36,872 nt of DNA from Thioalkalivibrio sp. (GTDB lineage Bacteria > Pseudomonadota > Gammaproteobacteria > SpSt-1174). The notes beneath the pieces are model-generated. The model was not told where the DNA came from. It worked only from the letters and a program-made list of their open reading frames with translations, and did not search any database. Made by a program: the position numbers and the translations under genes. The stretch lies in NCBI GenBank assembly GCA_011046015.1, contig DSBO01000125.1, positions 1-36,872 of the forward strand. The letters are read 5' to 3'. Below, piece by piece: positions 16,129 through 36,850 of this stretch. Position 1 is the first letter of the stretch, and every line of letters begins with the position of its first letter.

Positions 16129-16788
16129 TCACTCGGTCTCCACCGGCATGCCGGCCGCCTTCCATTCGGGGAAGCCATCCTGCAGCCGGCGCGCCCTGAG
16201 ACCCTGGCCGCGCAGGCGCTCCACCGCCTCGAAGGCCAGCACGCAGTGCGGACCGCGGCAGTAGGCCACCACCTCGCCGCTGTCGCGCAGTTCGTCGAGG
16301 TGCCGCTCCAGCTCGGCCAGCGGGATGTTCACGGCACCGGGCAGGTGCCCGGCGGCGTACTCCTCGGAGGGACGCACGTCGAGCACGGTGACCTCGCCCT
16401 TGCGCGCGCGTTCCAGCAGATCCTTCACCGGCATGGGCTCCAGCGCGTCCTTCACGGTGAGGTAGGTATCCACCAGCACCTTCACGTCGGCCAGGTGCCG
16501 CTCGGCCACGCCGCGCACGCACTGCATGAGCAGCACCACGTCGTCGCCCGTCAGACGGTAATAGACATGCAGCCCCTCCTTGCGCGAGGTCACCAGCCCT
16601 ACCTGCCGCAACTGCTGCAGGTGCTGCGAGGTGTTGCGCACGGACAGTCCGGACACGCGGGCGAGATCGTCGACGTTGCGCTCGCCCTGGGCGAGAAACT
16701 CCAGCAGCTCCAGCCGGTGGCCGTTGCCCAGGGCCTTGGCCACGCGGGCGAACTGGGCGAAGAGGTCTTTCTTGAAATTACCTGACAT
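16129..16788 (-). CDS. ArsR/SmtB family regulator with C-terminal rhodanese domain
   Basis: A 219-residue fusion. Residues 10-95 are a winged helix-turn-helix (RLELLEFLAQGERNVDDLAR; SGLSVRNTSQHLQQLRQVGLV). Residues 115-215 are a rhodanese domain with the active-site loop YCRGPHC (Cys177, Cys182) and entry motif VLDVRPSEEYAAGHLPGA. The arsenic-binding ELCVC motif of classical ArsR is absent, and the only other cysteine is Cys90. The sensor is therefore likely a thiol/persulfide switch or an arsenic site using the rhodanese cysteines (inference). CCGGAG lies upstream of the ATG. It diverges from the arsenosugar-type operon across a palindrome and most likely represses it and itself. Confidence 0.92.
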   Translation of the reverse strand: MSGNFKKDLFAQFARVAKALGNGHRLELLEFLAQGERNVDDLARVSGLSVRNTSQHLQQLRQVGLVTSRKEGLHVYYRLTGDDVVLLMQCVRGVAERHLADVKVLVDTYLTVKDALEPMPVKDLLERARKGEVTVLDVRPSEEYAAGHLPGAVNIPLAELERHLDELRDSGEVVAYCRGPHCVLAFEAVERLRGQGLRARRLQDGFPEWKAAGMPVETE

Positions 16789-16803: not shown

Positions 16804-16829
16804 ACTATTCCACTAATCTATGGAATAGT
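16804..16829. promoter_or_regulatory. Palindromic operator in the divergent promoter region
   Basis: ACTATTCCA (16804-16812), eight bases, then TGGAATAGT (16821-16829): a perfect 9-bp inverted repeat, just 16 bases upstream of the ArsR-rhodanese ATG. It is AT-rich in GC-rich surroundings. TATCTT at 16831-16836 is a plausible -10 for the rightward operon and TAGATT (minus strand, within the spacer) for the leftward gene, so a bound dimer would block both. Arm length and spacing fit an ArsR-family dimer. Confidence 0.8.
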
Positions 16830-16927: not shown

Positions 16928-17788
16928 ATGGATCTCGACCAGATCATCATGCAATACGAGCCGGCCATCCGCCTGTCGGCCTTCCTCGGCGTCTTTGCCC
17001 TGATGGCCGCCTGGGAGGTGCTCGCGCCCCGCCGCCAGCTTACCACCCCCAAGTGGGTGCGCTGGAGCAGCAACCTCGGCCTGGTGTTCCTGAACACCTT
17101 CCTGCTGCGCCTGGCCTTCCCGGCCGCCGCCGTGGGGGTGGCACTGCTGGCCCAGGAGATGGGCTGGGGGCTGTTCAACGTGGTGGACGTGCCGTTCTGG
17201 TTCGCCATCCTCGCCTCGGTGCTGATCATGGACTTTGTGATCTGGCTGCAACACGTCATGGTGCATGCCATCCCGCTGTTGTGGCGCATCCACCGCATGC
17301 ACCACGCCGACCTCGACTTCGACGTGACCACCGGCTCGCGCTTCCACCCCATCGAGATCTTCCTCTCCATGGGCATCAAGTTCGCGACCATCGTCCTGCT
17401 CGGCCCGCCGGTGGTGGCGGTGGTGATCTTCGAGGTGCTGCTCAACGCCACGGCCATGTTCAACCACAGCAACATCCGCCTGCCGCTGGCCGTGGACCGG
17501 GTGCTGCGGCTGTTCATCGTCACCCCGGACATGCACCGCGTGCATCACTCCATCGAGGACGACGAGACCAACAGCAACTTCGGCTTCAATCTCTCGATCT
17601 GGGACCGCCTATTCGGCACCTACCGCGCGCAGCCGCGCGCCGGCCACGAGGGCATGACCATCGGCATCCGCGACATGCGCGAGACGAAGCTCTGCGCCTG
17701 GCTGCCCGGGATGCTGGCCATCCCCTTCGTCGGCAAGGTGACGGGCTACGCCATCAATCGCCGCCAGTGGGGAAAGAGCGATGACTAA
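16928..17788 (+). CDS. Fatty acid hydroxylase/sterol desaturase family membrane enzyme
   Basis: A 286-residue integral membrane di-iron enzyme. Several TMs occupy residues 15-125 (AFLGVFALMAAWEVLAP; FWFAILASVLIMDFVIWLQHVMVHAI). The histidine motifs are present: HVMVH, HRMHHADLDFD, NHSNIRLP and HRVHHSIEDDETNSNFG, the usual set for the FA_hydroxylase family. Such enzymes hydroxylate or desaturate lipids or carotenoids. The track start is 29 codons too early; the first family-like residues begin at the ATG at 16928. It is the first gene of the operon under the palindrome and overlaps the next gene by eight bases. A lipid-modifying enzyme heading an arsenosugar cluster suggests an arsenolipid product (inference); its true substrate is unknown. 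Confidence 0.9.
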   Translation: MDLDQIIMQYEPAIRLSAFLGVFALMAAWEVLAPRRQLTTPKWVRWSSNLGLVFLNTFLLRLAFPAAAVGVALLAQEMGWGLFNVVDVPFWFAILASVLIMDFVIWLQHVMVHAIPLLWRIHRMHHADLDFDVTTGSRFHPIEIFLSMGIKFATIVLLGPPVVAVVIFEVLLNATAMFNHSNIRLPLAVDRVLRLFIVTPDMHRVHHSIEDDETNSNFGFNLSIWDRLFGTYRAQPRAGHEGMTIGIRDMRETKLCAWLPGMLAIPFVGKVTGYAINRRQWGKSDD

Positions 17789-18746
17789 GACCCTGACACG
17801 CATCGCCCTGCTGCTGGTGCTGGTCGCCGGCATCGCCCTGGCCATCGTCTACCGCGACGCCTTCGACGCGGCGGCGCTCGAGGCCTGGGTGGACAACGCC
17901 GGGGCCGCCGGCCCCGTGGCCTTCGTGCTGATCTATGCACTGGCCACCGTGCTGTTCCTGCCGGGCTCCGTGCTGACCCTCGCCGGCGGGGCCCTGTTCG
18001 GCCCGGTGCTCGGCACCGTTCTCAACCTCACCGGTGCCACGCTGGGCGCCGCGCTGGCCTTCCTGGTCTCGCGACACCTGGCCTCGGACTGGGTGGCGCG
18101 CAGGACCGGCGGGCGACTCAGGCAGCTCATCCAGGGCGTGGAGTCCGAGGGCTGGCGCTTCGTGGCCTTCGTGCGCCTGGTGCCGCTGTTCCCCTTCAAC
18201 CTGCTGAACTACGCGCTGGGGCTCACGCGCATCCCCTTCTGGCATTACGTGGTCGCCTCCTACGTCTGCATGCTTCCCGGCGCCATCGCCTATACCTATC
18301 TGGGATATGCCGGGCGCGAGGCCATCGCCGGGGGCGAGTCGCTGATCCAGAAGATCCTGCTCGGCATCGCCCTGCTCGCGGTCGTGGCCTTCCTGCCCCG
18401 CCTGGTCGCGCGCCTGCGCCGCGGCCCGACGCTCGACATCGCCGCGCTCAGGGCACGCCTCGATGCCGGTGACGACCTGCTGGTGCTGGACGTGCGCACG
18501 CCCGAGGAATTCACGGGCGAACTCGGGCATATCCAGGGCGCCCGCAACCTGCCGCTGGATGCCGTGGCCACAAGCAGCAGCGAACTGGCCGACTGGCAGG
18601 AGCGCCCGGTACTGCTGGTCTGCCGCACCGACAGGCGCTCGGCCAAGGCGGCGCAGATCCTGGCCCGCAAGGGGTTTGCCGACGTCCACGTCGTCGCCGG
18701 TGGCATGGAGGCCTGGAACGCGGCCGGGCTTCCGGTCGAACGCTGA
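17781..18746 (+). CDS. TVP38/TMEM64 (DedA-superfamily) membrane protein fused to rhodanese
   Basis: A 321-residue fusion. Residues 1-215 form a SNARE-associated/VTT-type membrane domain with typical glycine-rich motifs (LPGSVLTLAGGALFGPVLGTVLNL; FVAFVRLVPLFPFNLLNYALGLT) and about five TMs. Residues 220-320 are a cytosolic rhodanese domain (VLDVRTPEEFTGELGHIQGARNLPL) with the catalytic loop VCRTDRRS. The same fold is in the divergent regulator, so the locus holds two rhodanese domains. Sulfur transfer at the membrane, or selenium/arsenic thiol chemistry, are candidate roles. The gene starts inside the previous gene. Domain calls are firm; the transported or modified species is unknown. Confidence 0.9.
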   Translation: MTKTLTRIALLLVLVAGIALAIVYRDAFDAAALEAWVDNAGAAGPVAFVLIYALATVLFLPGSVLTLAGGALFGPVLGTVLNLTGATLGAALAFLVSRHLASDWVARRTGGRLRQLIQGVESEGWRFVAFVRLVPLFPFNLLNYALGLTRIPFWHYVVASYVCMLPGAIAYTYLGYAGREAIAGGESLIQKILLGIALLAVVAFLPRLVARLRRGPTLDIAALRARLDAGDDLLVLDVRTPEEFTGELGHIQGARNLPLDAVATSSSELADWQERPVLLVCRTDRRSAKAAQILARKGFADVHVVAGGMEAWNAAGLPVER

Positions 18747-18771
18747 CGATCTCAACCGAAGGAGGTACGAG

Positions 18772-19122
18772 ATGAAACGCGCACTCATCATCCTGAACGA
18801 CCCGCCCTACGGCACCGAGCGCAGCTTCAACGGCCTGCGCATGGCCAAGGCGTTGCAAAAACAGGTCGAGGACGGCGTCGACGTCTTTCTCATGGCCGAT
18901 TCGGTGGGCTGCGCCCGCGCCGGGCAGAAGATCCCGCAGGGGTATTACAACCTGGAGCTGATGCTCAAGGCCGTGCTGCGCAAGGGCCGCGTGCTGCTCT
19001 GCGGCACCTGCATGGACGCACGCGGTCTCAGGGACGAGGACCTGGTGGAAGGCGCCGAGCGCTCCACCATGGACGAACTCGGCGAACTCACCGCCGCGGC
19101 CGACAAGGTCCTGATCTTCTGA
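18772..19122 (+). CDS. DsrE/DsrF-like protein
   Basis: A 116-residue cytosolic protein with the DsrE-like fold: MKRALIILNDPPYGTERSFNGLRMA at the start and LLCGTCMDARGL with two cysteines (Cys77, Cys80); Cys47 is in SVGCARAG. DsrE-family proteins carry sulfur as persulfides between thiotransferases. Beside two rhodanese domains, this makes a sulfur-relay set. The track ORF begins 103 codons earlier inside the TVP38 gene; AAGGAGG six bases before the ATG at 18772 fixes the start. The CxxC in CGTCMDARG is kept in many such small proteins next to ArsR-type regulators (from memory). The partner is unknown. Confidence 0.85.
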   Translation: MKRALIILNDPPYGTERSFNGLRMAKALQKQVEDGVDVFLMADSVGCARAGQKIPQGYYNLELMLKAVLRKGRVLLCGTCMDARGLRDEDLVEGAERSTMDELGELTAAADKVLIF

Positions 19123-19198: not shown

Positions 19199-20161
19199 AT
19201 GCACGCCACACTGCCATTACTGAAAGACACCGACTTCCCCGCCATCCGCCGCGGTCGGCTCACCACGCTGCAGGTCAACCTGGGCTATCGCTGCAACCAG
19301 AGCTGCCTGCACTGCCACGTGAACGCGGGACCGAACCGCAAGGAGATGATGACGGCCGAGACCATCGACACCGTCGTCGACTTCCTCCAGGCAGGCGGCA
19401 TAGAGACCCTGGACCTCACCGGTGGTGCACCCGAACTCAATCCGCATTTCCGCGATCTCGTCGCCCGCGCGCGCGCGCTCGGCGTCCACGTGATGGATCG
19501 CTGCAACCTCACCGTCCTGAATGAACCCGGCCAGGAAGACCTGGCGGATTTCCTCGCGGCACATGACGTGGAAGTCATCGCCTCCCTGCCCTGTTACCTC
19601 GAGGAAAACGTCGACGGGCAGCGCGGCCAGGGCGTGTACCACGGCAGCATCGAAGGGCTCAAAAAGCTCAACGCACGCGGCTACGGCCAGGCCGACGGCA
19701 GCCTGGTGCTGGACCTCGTCTACAACCCGACCGGCCCCTTCCTGCCCCCGGCGCAGGCCGCGCTCGAGGCCGACTACAAACGCGAACTCGCCGCACGCTT
19801 CGGCATCGCCTTCAACCGGTTGTTCACGCTCACCAACCTGCCCATCCAGCGCTTCGGCAGTACGCTGGTGAGCAAGGGCCAGTTCGACGACTACATGCAG
19901 CTGCTGCGCGGCGCCTACCGCGCGGAGAACCTCGACGCGGTGATGTGCCGCTCGCTCTTGAGCGTGGACTGGCAGGGTTACGTCTACGACTGCGACTTCA
20001 ACCAGATGCTCGGCCTGCCGCTGGCCGTTGAGGGCAAGGCCAGGCCGAAACTGGCCGACCTCCTCGGCCGCGACCTCGAAGGCAACCCGATCGTGATCGC
20101 CGACCACTGCTACGGCTGCACCGCCGGGCAGGGCTCGTCCTGCGGCGGGGCGTTGAGCTAG
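19199..20161 (+). CDS. arsS: Radical SAM protein ArsS (arsenosugar biosynthesis type)
   Basis: Radical SAM enzyme proposed to join an adenosyl-derived group to dimethylated arsenic, giving the precursor of arsenosugars. The 320-residue product holds the [4Fe-4S] motif CNQSCLHC (Cys32, Cys36, Cys39) and MDRCNLTVL. It also has the family stretch EVIASLPCYLEENVDGQRGQG and a Cys-rich C-terminus (DCDFNQMLGLPL; HCYGCTAGQGSSCGGALS) typical of this radical SAM/Cys-rich family. Some relatives use selenocysteine; here all sites are Cys codons. It precedes arsM, separated by a dispersed palindrome. No strong Shine-Dalgarno is visible; a hairpin sits upstream. The assignment rests on these motifs and the neighbours. 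Confidence 0.92.
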   Translation: MHATLPLLKDTDFPAIRRGRLTTLQVNLGYRCNQSCLHCHVNAGPNRKEMMTAETIDTVVDFLQAGGIETLDLTGGAPELNPHFRDLVARARALGVHVMDRCNLTVLNEPGQEDLADFLAAHDVEVIASLPCYLEENVDGQRGQGVYHGSIEGLKKLNARGYGQADGSLVLDLVYNPTGPFLPPAQAALEADYKRELAARFGIAFNRLFTLTNLPIQRFGSTLVSKGQFDDYMQLLRGAYRAENLDAVMCRSLLSVDWQGYVYDCDFNQMLGLPLAVEGKARPKLADLLGRDLEGNPIVIADHCYGCTAGQGSSCGGALS

Positions 20162-20291: not shown

Positions 20292-21413
20292 ATGGACGTT
20301 CGCCAATCCGTACTCGACCGCTACTCCGAAGGCGCGCAGCAGCGCGTGGAGGCCCTGTGCTGTCCGGTGGACTACGATGCCCGCCTGCTCGAGGCCATCC
20401 CGGACGAGATCCTGGAACGCGACTACGGCTGCGGCGATCCGTCGCGTTACGTGCGCGAGGGCGACACCGTGCTCGACCTCGGCGCCGGCGGCGGCAAGAT
20501 CTGCTACATGGCCGCACAGCTCGTCGGCCCCGGGGGCTTTGTGATCGGCGTGGACATGAACGACGACATGCTCGCCCTCGCCCGCCGTCATCAGGGCGAC
20601 ATGGGAAAGAAGCTCGGCGGCAATCGCGTCGACTTTCGCAAGGGTTACATCCAGGATCTCGCGCTGGACGTCGGCGCGATGGAACGCTTCCTCGCCGAAC
20701 ACCCCGTGAACGATGCCGCGGGCTACACCCGCCTGCACGACTGGCAGGCCGCGCAGCGCCGCGAACAGCCGCTGATCGCCGATGCCTCAGTGGATCTCGT
20801 CATCTCCAACTGCGTGCTCAACCTGGTACCGGACGCGGACAAGACCCAGCTGGTGCGCGAGGTCTTCCGCGTGCTCAGGCCCGGTGGGCGCGTGGCGATC
20901 TCCGACATCGTCAGCGACGAGCCCATCCCCGAACACCTGAAGAACGACCCGGCGCTGTGGAGCGGCTGCATCTCCGGGGCCTTCCAGGAAGAGGCATTCC
21001 TCGAGGCCTTCCGCGAGGCCGGCTTCGTCGCCGTGGCCTACGACAAGTGGGACGCCGCGCCCTGGCAGGTGATCGAGGGCATCGAGTTCCGCTCGGTCAC
21101 GCTCACTGCCACGAAGCCCGAGGCCACCCCCTGCCTCGACTACGGTCATGCCGTGATGTACCGCGGTCCGTTCTCGGAAGTGTCCGACGACGAGGGTCAC
21201 GTCTACCCGCGCGGCGCGCGCATCGCCGTGTGCGAGCGCAGCTACCGGCTCCTCACCGAGGGGCCCTACGCCGACCAGTTCATCGGGTTTGCACCGCGCA
21301 ACCCGGGTGAGCCGCGCACGTTCTGTGCACCGGCCGGCACCCGCCGTCCGGCCGCCGAGACCAAGAGCCCCCTCGCGCCCACCTGCGACAGCGAGGGCAG
21401 CTGCTGTTGCTGA
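20292..21413 (+). CDS. arsM: Arsenite S-adenosylmethionine methyltransferase ArsM
   Basis: Methylates As(III) with S-adenosylmethionine. The 373-residue product has the SAM site VLDLGAGGGKICYMAAQLVG and VIGVDMNDDMLALAR. All four cysteines of the arsenic site have counterparts: LCCPVDYD (Cys23/24), DYGCGDP (Cys47), ISNCVLNLVPD and WSGCISGAF. With the N-terminal cysteine present, multiple methylations are plausible. A tail ending CDSEGSCCC is an extra, possibly metalloid-binding, feature. The start at 20292 (MDVRQSVLDRYSEG) has AGGAGA upstream; the track's earlier ATG at 20253 lacks this. It overlaps the next gene by seven bases and follows arsS, matching known arsM/arsS pairing. Confidence 0.94.
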   Translation: MDVRQSVLDRYSEGAQQRVEALCCPVDYDARLLEAIPDEILERDYGCGDPSRYVREGDTVLDLGAGGGKICYMAAQLVGPGGFVIGVDMNDDMLALARRHQGDMGKKLGGNRVDFRKGYIQDLALDVGAMERFLAEHPVNDAAGYTRLHDWQAAQRREQPLIADASVDLVISNCVLNLVPDADKTQLVREVFRVLRPGGRVAISDIVSDEPIPEHLKNDPALWSGCISGAFQEEAFLEAFREAGFVAVAYDKWDAAPWQVIEGIEFRSVTLTATKPEATPCLDYGHAVMYRGPFSEVSDDEGHVYPRGARIAVCERSYRLLTEGPYADQFIGFAPRNPGEPRTFCAPAGTRRPAAETKSPLAPTCDSEGSCCC

Positions 21414-22090
21414 GGATCTCGGTCATCGTGCCGGCGCTCAACGAGGCGGCGACGATCGCGGCCACACTCGCGCCGCTGCAGGCCGCGCGTGCGGCCGGTC
21501 ACGAGATCATCGTGGTCGACGGCGGCAGCACGGATGCCACCGTCGACCGTGCCCGTGCGCTGGCCGACCGGGTGATCGTCAGTCCGCCCGGCCGGGCCAC
21601 GCAGATGAACGCGGGGGCACGCATCGCGACCGGCGATATCCTGTGGTTTCTGCATGCCGACACCCTCGCACCCGCCGATGCGATCGATACGCTTTGCGCT
21701 GCACTCGCCGACGGACGCCGCTCCTGGGGCCGCTTCGACGTGCGCCTGTCCGGGAATCGCTGGCCATTTCGCGTGATCGAGCGCGCCATGAACCTGCGCT
21801 CCTGCCTGACGCGCATCGCCACCGGCGACCAGGGCATCTTCGTCACGCGCCAGGCCTTCGCGGCCGTCGTCGGCTATGCCGACATCCCGCTGATGGAAGA
21901 CGTCGAGCTCAGCAAGCGCCTGCGAAAACACACGCCACCGGCCTGCCTCAAGACACGGCTCGTCACCTCCAGCCGGCGCTGGGAACAGAACGGCATCATC
22001 CGCACCGTGCTCCTCATGTGGCGCCTGCGGCTGGCCTACTTCGTCGGCGCCGCTCCCGACGCCCTGGCCGAGCGCTACCGTCGTGGCTGA
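21407..22090 (+). CDS. Glycosyltransferase family 2, arsenosugar-associated (TIGR04283 type)
   Basis: A 227-residue GT-A enzyme. The family 2 core is clear: ISVIVPALNEAATIAATLAPLQ, the nucleotide-binding EIIVVDGGSTDATVDRA, and the metal-binding region GDILWFLHADTLAP (here HAD for DxD). A later GDQGIFVTRQAF and PLMEDVELSKRL complete the acceptor side. The hydrophobic C-terminus could associate with the membrane. The start is TTG at 21407, inside the last codons of arsM. This family is annotated as arsenosugar biosynthesis because it sits with arsM/arsS; the donor and acceptor sugars have not been read from sequence. It likely adds a sugar to the arsenoriboside. Confidence 0.87.
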   Translation: MLRISVIVPALNEAATIAATLAPLQAARAAGHEIIVVDGGSTDATVDRARALADRVIVSPPGRATQMNAGARIATGDILWFLHADTLAPADAIDTLCAALADGRRSWGRFDVRLSGNRWPFRVIERAMNLRSCLTRIATGDQGIFVTRQAFAAVVGYADIPLMEDVELSKRLRKHTPPACLKTRLVTSSRRWEQNGIIRTVLLMWRLRLAYFVGAAPDALAERYRRG

Positions 22091-22742
22091 CCAGGGCGAT
22101 ACCGCGGTCATCGTCTTCGCCCGCGCCCCCGTGCCGGGCGCCAGCAAGACGCGCCTGATCCCGGCCCTGGGCGCGACGGGTGCGGCCGCACTGCATGGCG
22201 CGATGATCGAGCGTACCCTCCAGACACTGGCCGCGCTGCCGCACGCGTATGACCTGCAGCTCTGGTGCGCGCCGGACACGCAACACCCGCTGTTCGCACG
22301 CCTCGCCCAACCACACCGCACAAGCCTGCACCGCCAATGCGGTGATGACCTGGGCGCACGCATGTATCATGCGCTGAACGCCGCCCTGCACGATCATGCA
22401 CAGGCCATCATCGTCGGCACCGACTGCCCCGGCCTGCTGCAAACCGATATCGAGACCGCACAGGAAGCACTGCGACATGGCGCGGACGCCGTGATCGGGC
22501 CGGCAGCGGATGGTGGTTACTGGCTGCTCGGCCTGCGCAACGTGTCGCCCGGACTCTTCGCCGACATCGCCTGGGGCGGCGACACGGTTTATGCCGACAC
22601 CGTGGCGCGTCTCGCGTCGCTGGACTGGCGCTGGCGGGCCCTGCGCACACTGGCCGACGTGGACCGACCGGAAGACCTCGTCCACGTCCCCGCCGATTGG
22701 CTGGCCGACACCTTGCTTGAAGACACAAGAGAGAACACATGA
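22083..22742 (+). CDS. Glycosyltransferase, DUF2064 (TIGR04282 type)
   Basis: A 219-residue cytosolic nucleotidyl/glycosyltransferase-fold protein. The signature IVFARAPVPGASKTRLIPALG is at the N-terminus, with QCGDDLGARMYHALNAAL and VGTDCPGLLQTDIETAQEAL in the middle and PAADGGYWLLGLR later. This is the DUF2064 pattern, with PxxGxxKTRL resembling the sugar-nucleotide transferase loop. It starts at GTG 22083 and overlaps the preceding glycosyltransferase by eight bases, and the small membrane protein after it by four, so translation is coupled throughout. Paired TIGR04283/TIGR04282 genes are usual. The chemistry is unproven; activation or transfer of a sugar for arsenosugar assembly is the contextual guess. 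Confidence 0.87.
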   Translation: MADQGDTAVIVFARAPVPGASKTRLIPALGATGAAALHGAMIERTLQTLAALPHAYDLQLWCAPDTQHPLFARLAQPHRTSLHRQCGDDLGARMYHALNAALHDHAQAIIVGTDCPGLLQTDIETAQEALRHGADAVIGPAADGGYWLLGLRNVSPGLFADIAWGGDTVYADTVARLASLDWRWRALRTLADVDRPEDLVHVPADWLADTLLEDTRENT

Positions 22743-22978: not shown

Positions 22979-23359
22979 GTGAACGTGCGCACGACAGGCC
23001 TGATCTTCGTCTATAACGCCGACAGCGGCCTGTTCAACACCATGGCCGACATCGGCCACAAGATCTTCTCGCCCCAGACCTACGCCTGCGAGCTCTGCGC
23101 GCTCACCCACGGCTATTTCCAGGAACGCCGAGAGTGGCGCGACTTCGTCGAATCCCTGCCACTTGCCTGCGAGTTCATGCACCGCGACGAGTTCCTGCGC
23201 GCACACCCCGAGCAAGACGGGCTGCGCTTCCCCCTGGTGCTGCGCAAGAATGATGGCGCGCTGCAGGTCTGCCTCACGCGCGAGGATCTGGCCGCCTGCA
23301 GCGACCTCGACGCCCTGCAGCAGGCCATCCGTCGCTGCCTGCCGGCCGGCGATACCTGA
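22979..23359 (+). CDS. Uncharacterised CxxC protein
   Basis: A 126-residue cytosolic protein starting at GTG 22979, with AAGGAGG six bases upstream. The N-terminal half, FVYNADSGLFNTMADIGHKIFSPQTYACELCALTHG, is a recognisable conserved segment of a family of unknown function, with CELC forming a vicinal CxxC. Further cysteines (LACEFMH, QVCLTRED, LAACSD, RRCLPAG) make it thiol-rich. A role in binding arsenic thiolates or in redox is tempting, but nothing in the sequence proves it. It follows the small membrane protein by 12 bases and is probably cotranscribed. Confidence 0.8.
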   Translation: MNVRTTGLIFVYNADSGLFNTMADIGHKIFSPQTYACELCALTHGYFQERREWRDFVESLPLACEFMHRDEFLRAHPEQDGLRFPLVLRKNDGALQVCLTREDLAACSDLDALQQAIRRCLPAGDT

Positions 23360-36414: not shown

Positions 36415-36850
36415 GAGCGGCGAAAGCCGCGATGCCCATGCTGACCATTGCTGCCACCCCAATCGCGCCTCGCAGCGCTCCTACCAACCCCGCGCTTTAC
36501 CCGTAGGAGCGGCGAAAGCCGCGATGCCCCTGCCCGGCAACGCTGCCCCACCCAATCGCACCTCGCAGCGCTCCTACCCATTCGGTGTCTACCCGTAGGA
36601 GCGGCGAAAGCCGCGATGCCCATGCCGGGCAACGCTGCCACACCCCAATCGCGCCTCGCAGCGCTCCTACCAATCCCGAGCTTTACCCGTAAGCGGCGAA
36701 AGCCGCGATGCCCAGGCCCGGAGGAACTGCCACCCCAATCGCGCCTCGCAGCGCTCCTGCCACTTCAGGGTTTACCCGTAGGAGCGGCGAAAGCCGCGAT
36801 TCGCAGTGGTGCCTGCGCCCGGCGTGATGATCGCGGCTTGCACCGCTACG
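36415..36850. repeat. 92-bp tandem array of palindromic (REP-like) units
   Basis: About 4.5 units start at 36415, 36507, 36599, 36691 and 36782, a period of 92, 92, 92 and 91 bp. Each opens with GAGCGGCGAAAGCCGCGATG (imperfect palindrome) and carries AATCGCGCCTCGCAGCGCTCCTAC, whose end pairs with the start of the next unit (GTAGGAGCG). Intervening bases differ by several substitutions. The fifth is cut short and ends with ATCGCGGCTTGCACCGCTAC. The pattern resembles REP/BIME elements of pseudomonads. The array fills the 410 bases right of the cyclase gene; no ORF there is credible. Confidence 0.92.

Follow-up and report, generated by a model that had tools for sequence, protein, structure and literature searches.

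A conserved inverted repeat between an ArsR-rhodanese gene and a divergent operon in Thioalkalivibrio sp.: a probable operator and a candidate sulfane-sulfur sensor

The regulator gene, the divergent operon and the intergenic palindrome

In the stretch of DNA analyzed here (the window; 36,872 nucleotides from Thioalkalivibrio sp.), a leftward gene for an ArsR-family protein fused to a rhodanese domain is separated by a 139-bp intergenic region from a rightward series of genes for membrane, sulfur-transfer and arsenosugar proteins. The features relevant to this report are as follows.

16129-16788, minus strand: ArsR-rhodanese regulator, 219 amino acids, with helix 50-62 carrying R51 and loop C177-R-G-P-x-C182
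16782-16787, plus strand: putative -35 element (CTGACA) of the operon promoter, read from the sequence, with TTGACA at the equivalent place in relatives
16804-16829, no strand assigned: probable operator ACTATTCCA-N8-TGGAATAGT, a variant of the family operator TATTCAA-N8-TTGAATA
16805-16811, plus strand: putative -10 element of the operon promoter (CTATTC or TATTCC; spacer, 17-18), placed from the sequence and from the promoter geometry of relatives
16928-17788, plus strand: fatty-acid hydroxylase (FAH)/sterol desaturase family protein, the most conserved target
17781-18746, plus strand: VTT (TVP38/DedA-like) membrane domain fused to a rhodanese, the second conserved target
18766-19122, plus strand: DsrE-like sulfur-transfer protein
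19199-20161, plus strand: ArsS, arsenosugar radical SAM protein (TIGR04167; 461 bits, cut-off 300)
20295-21413, plus strand: ArsM-like methyltransferase with a C-terminal CCC, below curated cut-offs
21407-22090, plus strand: arsenosugar glycosyltransferase (TIGR04283; 282 bits, cut-off 182)
22083-22742, plus strand: arsenosugar glycosyltransferase (TIGR04282; 207 bits, cut-off 134)
22979-23359, plus strand: conserved orphan protein with no Pfam or NCBIfam family, a probable member of the operon

The regulator combines an ArsR HTH domain (residues 25-68; PF01022, 42.7 bits against a cut-off of 22; NF033788, 83.8 bits against 55) with a rhodanese domain (residues 122-212; PF00581, 60.9 bits against 22.2) whose catalytic loop cysteine, C177, is invariant. 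Its AlphaFold model (pLDDT, 88.5) was matched by Foldseek to 3gw2, SmtB, NolR and SqrR.

From FAH through the second glycosyltransferase, the rightward genes overlap or are separated by gaps of no more than ca. 134 nt, so that a single transcript is likely for this group. ArsS, the ArsM-like methyltransferase and the arsenosugar glycosyltransferases also occur in a relative of the same genus (L041). The best model for the methyltransferase was NF040538, at 352.5 bits against a cut-off of 500; the protein falls under every curated arsenic methyltransferase cut-off and may represent a distinct subfamily. The orphan protein carries the motif VYNADSG...C-x2-C...THG, and its homologues are found directly under the operator at two other loci (L176 and L185). 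The rightward genes also include one for a thiamine-binding protein. Toward the contig ends, the window holds about 10 tandem copies of CCCAAACA (positions 1-83) and four copies of a 92-nt tandem repeat (36415-36800).

The original prediction for this locus was that a perfect 9+9 inverted repeat lies between the ArsR-rhodanese gene and the operon. This repeat is present exactly as described; the full site at 16804-16829 reads ACTATTCCA-CTAATCTA-TGGAATAGT, with both 9-base arms perfect and a spacer of 8 bases. By itself the palindrome is suggestive rather than decisive, because 38 of 5,000 shuffles (ca. 0.8%) of the intergenic region also contained a perfect 9+9 inverted repeat with a spacer of 0 to 20. 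No second copy of the 26-mer at three or fewer mismatches was found in the window (none expected, from 100 shuffles), and the genome-wide motif search that had been proposed found no further copy at the same tolerance in the organism's own assembly (2.2 Mb, 76% complete). A larger regulon in this genome was rejected on these grounds.

Conservation of the operator and its covariation with residue 51

It is conservation in relatives that makes the operator secure. A regulator homologue is present in 97 of the 369 genomes of the class, and among the 85 loci whose flanks were long enough, 67 have a best upstream 24-mer scoring at least 12/16 against CTATTCAA-N8-TTGAATAG, a score attained by 1.3% of shuffles. 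When the class loci were pooled with loci added from genome_contigs, a good TATTCAA-N8-TTGAATA site was found directly upstream of the ArsR-rhodanese gene at 129 of 149 nonredundant loci; in this set, 7 bases per arm are nearly fixed and the 8-base center is A+T rich. Relatives belonging to a different class of the same phylum carry this operator as well, and there too it often adjoins FAH. Class-wide, the exact operator was found in 35 of the 97 genomes with the regulator versus 10 of the 272 without it, while the reversed pattern was found in 3 of 369. One of these 10 genomes (G101) has its regulator cut by a contig end. Exact operators in regulator-less genomes (L230, L235, L240 and L242 to L244) had no adjoining regulon gene and were taken as chance occurrences. 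Weaker 22-mer matches in G000, G001 and G002 exceeded the reversed-control frequency in G001 only, and none of those that were fetched adjoins a regulon gene. On the strength of this comparison, the inverted repeat is very probably a real operator. At one locus (L220; G242:C1:2507502-2507569), a single regulator is accompanied by two exact tandem operators, 46 nt apart, and two exact operators 22 kb apart (G055:C1:1376647 and 1398413) occur in a genome whose homologue is distant (41% identity).

Promoters were inferred from conservation. In relatives, TTGACA usually precedes the operator by 23 to 24 nt (75 of 125) and overlaps the regulator start codon; it is retained where the start codon sits elsewhere (L061, L079, L139, L162 and others). 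A -10 element mostly follows 16 to 17 nt after TTGACA (89 of 104 at 15 to 18 nt, versus an expectation of 36 from shuffled sequence). A TATAAT-like box in the leftward orientation follows the operator at 15 to 18 nt (100 of 136 within 40 nt, versus 32 expected). Given these conserved and oppositely oriented positions, the operator would sit between or over both promoters. In the window, the putative -35 element overlaps the start codon of the regulator (CAT, 16786-16788), and the left operator arm itself may provide the -10 element of the operon promoter. No clear leftward -10 box was seen in the window itself, and a generic consensus promoter scanner reported no promoter there, the putative -10 element included.

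Where regulator and target lie apart, an operator remains beside the target, as seen for FAH in three genomes and for TauE/SafE in two. In 34 regulator-bearing genomes we found 19 exact operators: 15 at the regulator, 3 at FAH and 1 at TauE/SafE. The FAH-linked operators are removed from the regulator by 2.3 kb (G309) or 1.4 Mb (G247) or lie on another contig (G296); the operator at TauE/SafE is exact in G085 and has one mismatch in G126, where it lies ahead of the TauE gene. Among the targets, FAH is the most conserved and by a wide margin the commonest. In individual relatives, the genes directly under the operator include those for TauE/SafE, a rhodanese of two domains, DsrE and an MBL-fold protein, which looks like a persulfide dioxygenase and for which Pfam gives only Lactamase_B.

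The strongest computational evidence that the window regulator binds this particular site comes from residue 51. All but 6 of 149 regulators have A51, and the half-site changes with the residue: TTCAA with A51, TTCCA with R51 (the window and L041), TTCTA with G51 (L080, L087 and L099) and TTCTC with T51 (L085). Both half-sites were changed for six of six non-A51 regulators versus none of 138 A51 regulators (Fisher test, 9e-11), with sites scored ignoring the changing base and a weak false site (L108) left out. Residue 51 was the best of 218 positions, the runner-up (0.003) being some seven orders of magnitude behind. As the regulator sequences are related, the count stands for at least four independent changes rather than six, and the window operator and R51, changed in one genus only, make up a single event. 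The few extra matches from the orders of G003 and G155 included no new non-A51 regulator. The AlphaFold model places residue 51 second in helix 50-62, which is expected to be the recognition helix, and an arginine facing a G is a common protein-DNA contact. Judging from this match between residue and operator, the window regulator most likely reads the site at 16804-16829. The suggestion that the repeat serves as the operator for both promoters is thus borne out by conservation, promoter geometry, unlinked target operators and covariation alike.

Cysteines of the regulator and the putative signal

The regulator was said to lack the ELCVC arsenic motif and to have only three cysteines (positions 90, 177 and 182), two of them in the rhodanese loop, and this is what we found. 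There is no cysteine in residues 1-89 and no ELCVCDL-type pair in the HTH metal-binding motif, and across the aligned homologues the ArsR domain has no conserved cysteine. C177 and C182, by contrast with C90, are invariant: all 148 aligned proteins have the pair (CRGPxC), while C90 occurs in 14 of 149 regulators and was rejected as a sensor residue for that reason. It follows that the dithiol of this regulator sits in the active-site loop of the rhodanese domain. The further suggestion of sensing at the rhodanese site, rather than at an ArsR-domain metal site, is therefore supported indirectly, by the invariant pair and the missing ELCVC motif; C90, not being conserved, drops out of it. The invariance of C177 and C182 could, however, mirror catalysis rather than sensing.

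The explanation that we favor, and to which as a whole we give somewhat better than even chances, is as follows. The regulator would be an ArsR-family repressor that acts as a homodimer, its rhodanese domain being C-terminal; on the operator it would block its own promoter (autorepression) as well as that of the divergent operon, with R51 of the recognition helix meeting the G of each TGGAA half-site, much as A51 would meet TTGAA in relatives. Derepression would occur when sulfane sulfur, as polysulfide or persulfide, reacts with C177/C182 in the rhodanese loop and leaves the two cysteines persulfidated or bridged. FAH and VTT-rhodanese would be the core targets; in the genus of the window, the arsenosugar genes would ride on the same transcript. 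Repression, the ligand and its chemistry we infer from sequence comparison. The recurrent targets (TauE, rhodanese and DsrE) and the hosts, many of the named ones being sulfur oxidizers or symbionts of sulfur oxidizers, favor a sulfane-sulfur signal, which we would rank first, with arsenic second. We know of no sulfur role for FAH, the most conserved target, and this counts against the sulfane-sulfur reading.

It is possible, albeit rather unlikely, that the same operator and repressor serve an arsenic operon, with As(III) or a methylated or thiolated arsenical as the inducer at C177/C182, possibly joined by thiols of the partner subunit. Such a signal would suit the presence of ArsS, the ArsM-like methyltransferase and two arsenosugar glycosyltransferases in the operon, here and in L041, and the position of ArsS directly beside the regulator in L143. 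ArsS also accompanies close orthologues of the regulator (59 of 71 versus 121 of 298 genomes; odds ratio of 7.2, uncorrected for kinship and habitat). In Thioalkalivibrio jannaschii, an operon that lies beside arx/ars and includes a glycosyl transferase and a rhodanese-related protein is upregulated at 5 mM As(III) (PMC6620896), although this may be a different operon from that of the window. However, only 20 of 150 loci have ArsS in the vicinity of the regulator, the ArsS genes that lie elsewhere in G133, G082 and G036 are not accompanied by an operator at one or fewer mismatches, and the recurrent unlinked targets are FAH and TauE. Moreover, the regulator has neither ELCVC nor a third conserved cysteine.

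A general thiol-redox switch, in which oxidants would form a C177-C182 disulfide with neither sulfur nor arsenic specificity, strikes us as distinctly improbable. The invariant, vicinal-type cysteine pair would fit such a switch, as would the genes for MerA-like FAD disulfide reductases that neighbor 36 of 150 loci, but a rhodanese active-site loop is suited to carrying sulfane sulfur, the targets are of the sulfur type, and no peroxidases recur among the conserved neighbors. Lower still we place the idea that the rhodanese is an enzyme or an oligomerization module and that the inducer, e.g., an FAH-related lipid or fatty-acid signal, binds elsewhere; ArsR proteins with other ligands do exist, and the predominance of FAH among the targets would be in keeping with this, but the loop cysteines are the only fully invariant ones. 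That the palindrome arose by chance or serves only as a structural repeat, with no role in regulation, as its frequency in shuffled intergenic regions might allow, is hardly credible, being opposed and in effect already refuted by the conservation, promoter, unlinked-operator and covariation evidence.

Relation to known ArsR regulators

SqrR, SoxR, BigR, YgaV and sHdrR are likewise ArsR winged-HTH repressors with dyad operators at divergent promoters, and for the present regulator, a dyad operator at its own promoter is indicated by the comparative evidence. These proteins sense sulfane sulfur by a dithiol, which is what we predict here, and the SqrR/SoxR group has targets of the same kind (pdo, rhd and TauE; PMC12423496). 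However, the two cysteines of that group lie in the ArsR domain (C50 and C116 in Hyphomicrobium SoxR; PMC10451225), where they are absent from the present regulator, whose pair lies in the fused rhodanese loop. Characterized sulfane-sulfur ArsR proteins form tri- to pentasulfide bridges (PMC10451225). Against the BigR model (NF040642), the window regulator scored 43.5 bits, below the cut-off of 155, and it lacks the two conserved ArsR-domain cysteines of BigR, SqrR and SoxR.

Arsenic-sensing ArsR repressors resemble the regulator in their ArsR fold and in having arsenic genes in the operon but differ in operator and targets and in their HTH As(III) site, ELCVC, which is absent here. NolR, which has been solved with DNA (4omy), and SmtB/CzrA share the fold; unlike the present protein, they have no rhodanese domain, and their metal-site Cys/His residues are not conserved in it. 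The closest solved HTH domain by both sequence and fold (46 to 48% identity) is that of the Mycobacterium ArsR protein Rv0324/Mb0332, which presumably is an ArsR-rhodanese fusion too; its structures (2kko and 3gw2) span residues 1-100 only. Rv0324 has a role in bedaquiline tolerance (PMC9480834). The papers that we read gave no operator or ligand for Rv0324/Mb0332, and our literature searches found nothing on an ArsR-rhodanese operator or on an ArsR protein with a sterol desaturase.

A 2025 study notes that the two sensing cysteines are missing from many of the ArsR regulators encoded close to sulfur-oxidation genes and that these must act by some other means (PMC12423496). The ArsR-rhodanese subfamily offers a concrete alternative, with its invariant loop cysteine pair, its defined operator and regulon and its one-residue code (residue 51). 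As far as sequence comparison can tell, its operator is real and deeply conserved, and its regulator differs from the known ArsR kind by the fused rhodanese dithiol. We suggest more tentatively, and at slightly less than even confidence, that this is a widespread subfamily in which the sensing dithiol has been relocated out of the DNA-binding domain to the active site of a fused rhodanese, with a sulfurtransferase domain reading sulfane sulfur and controlling an FAH/VTT-rhodanese/TauE membrane regulon in sulfur oxidizers and, in some genera, arsenosugar synthesis. If the ligand were arsenic instead, the protein would be an unusual arsenic sensor governing arsenosugar genes. A paralogue in the same genome (L002; G000:C35:5975-6619; 50% identity) is an ArsR-rhodanese protein without this operator and with a single loop cysteine, and its gene adjoins one for a Cys-rich protein with EGKCG repeats.
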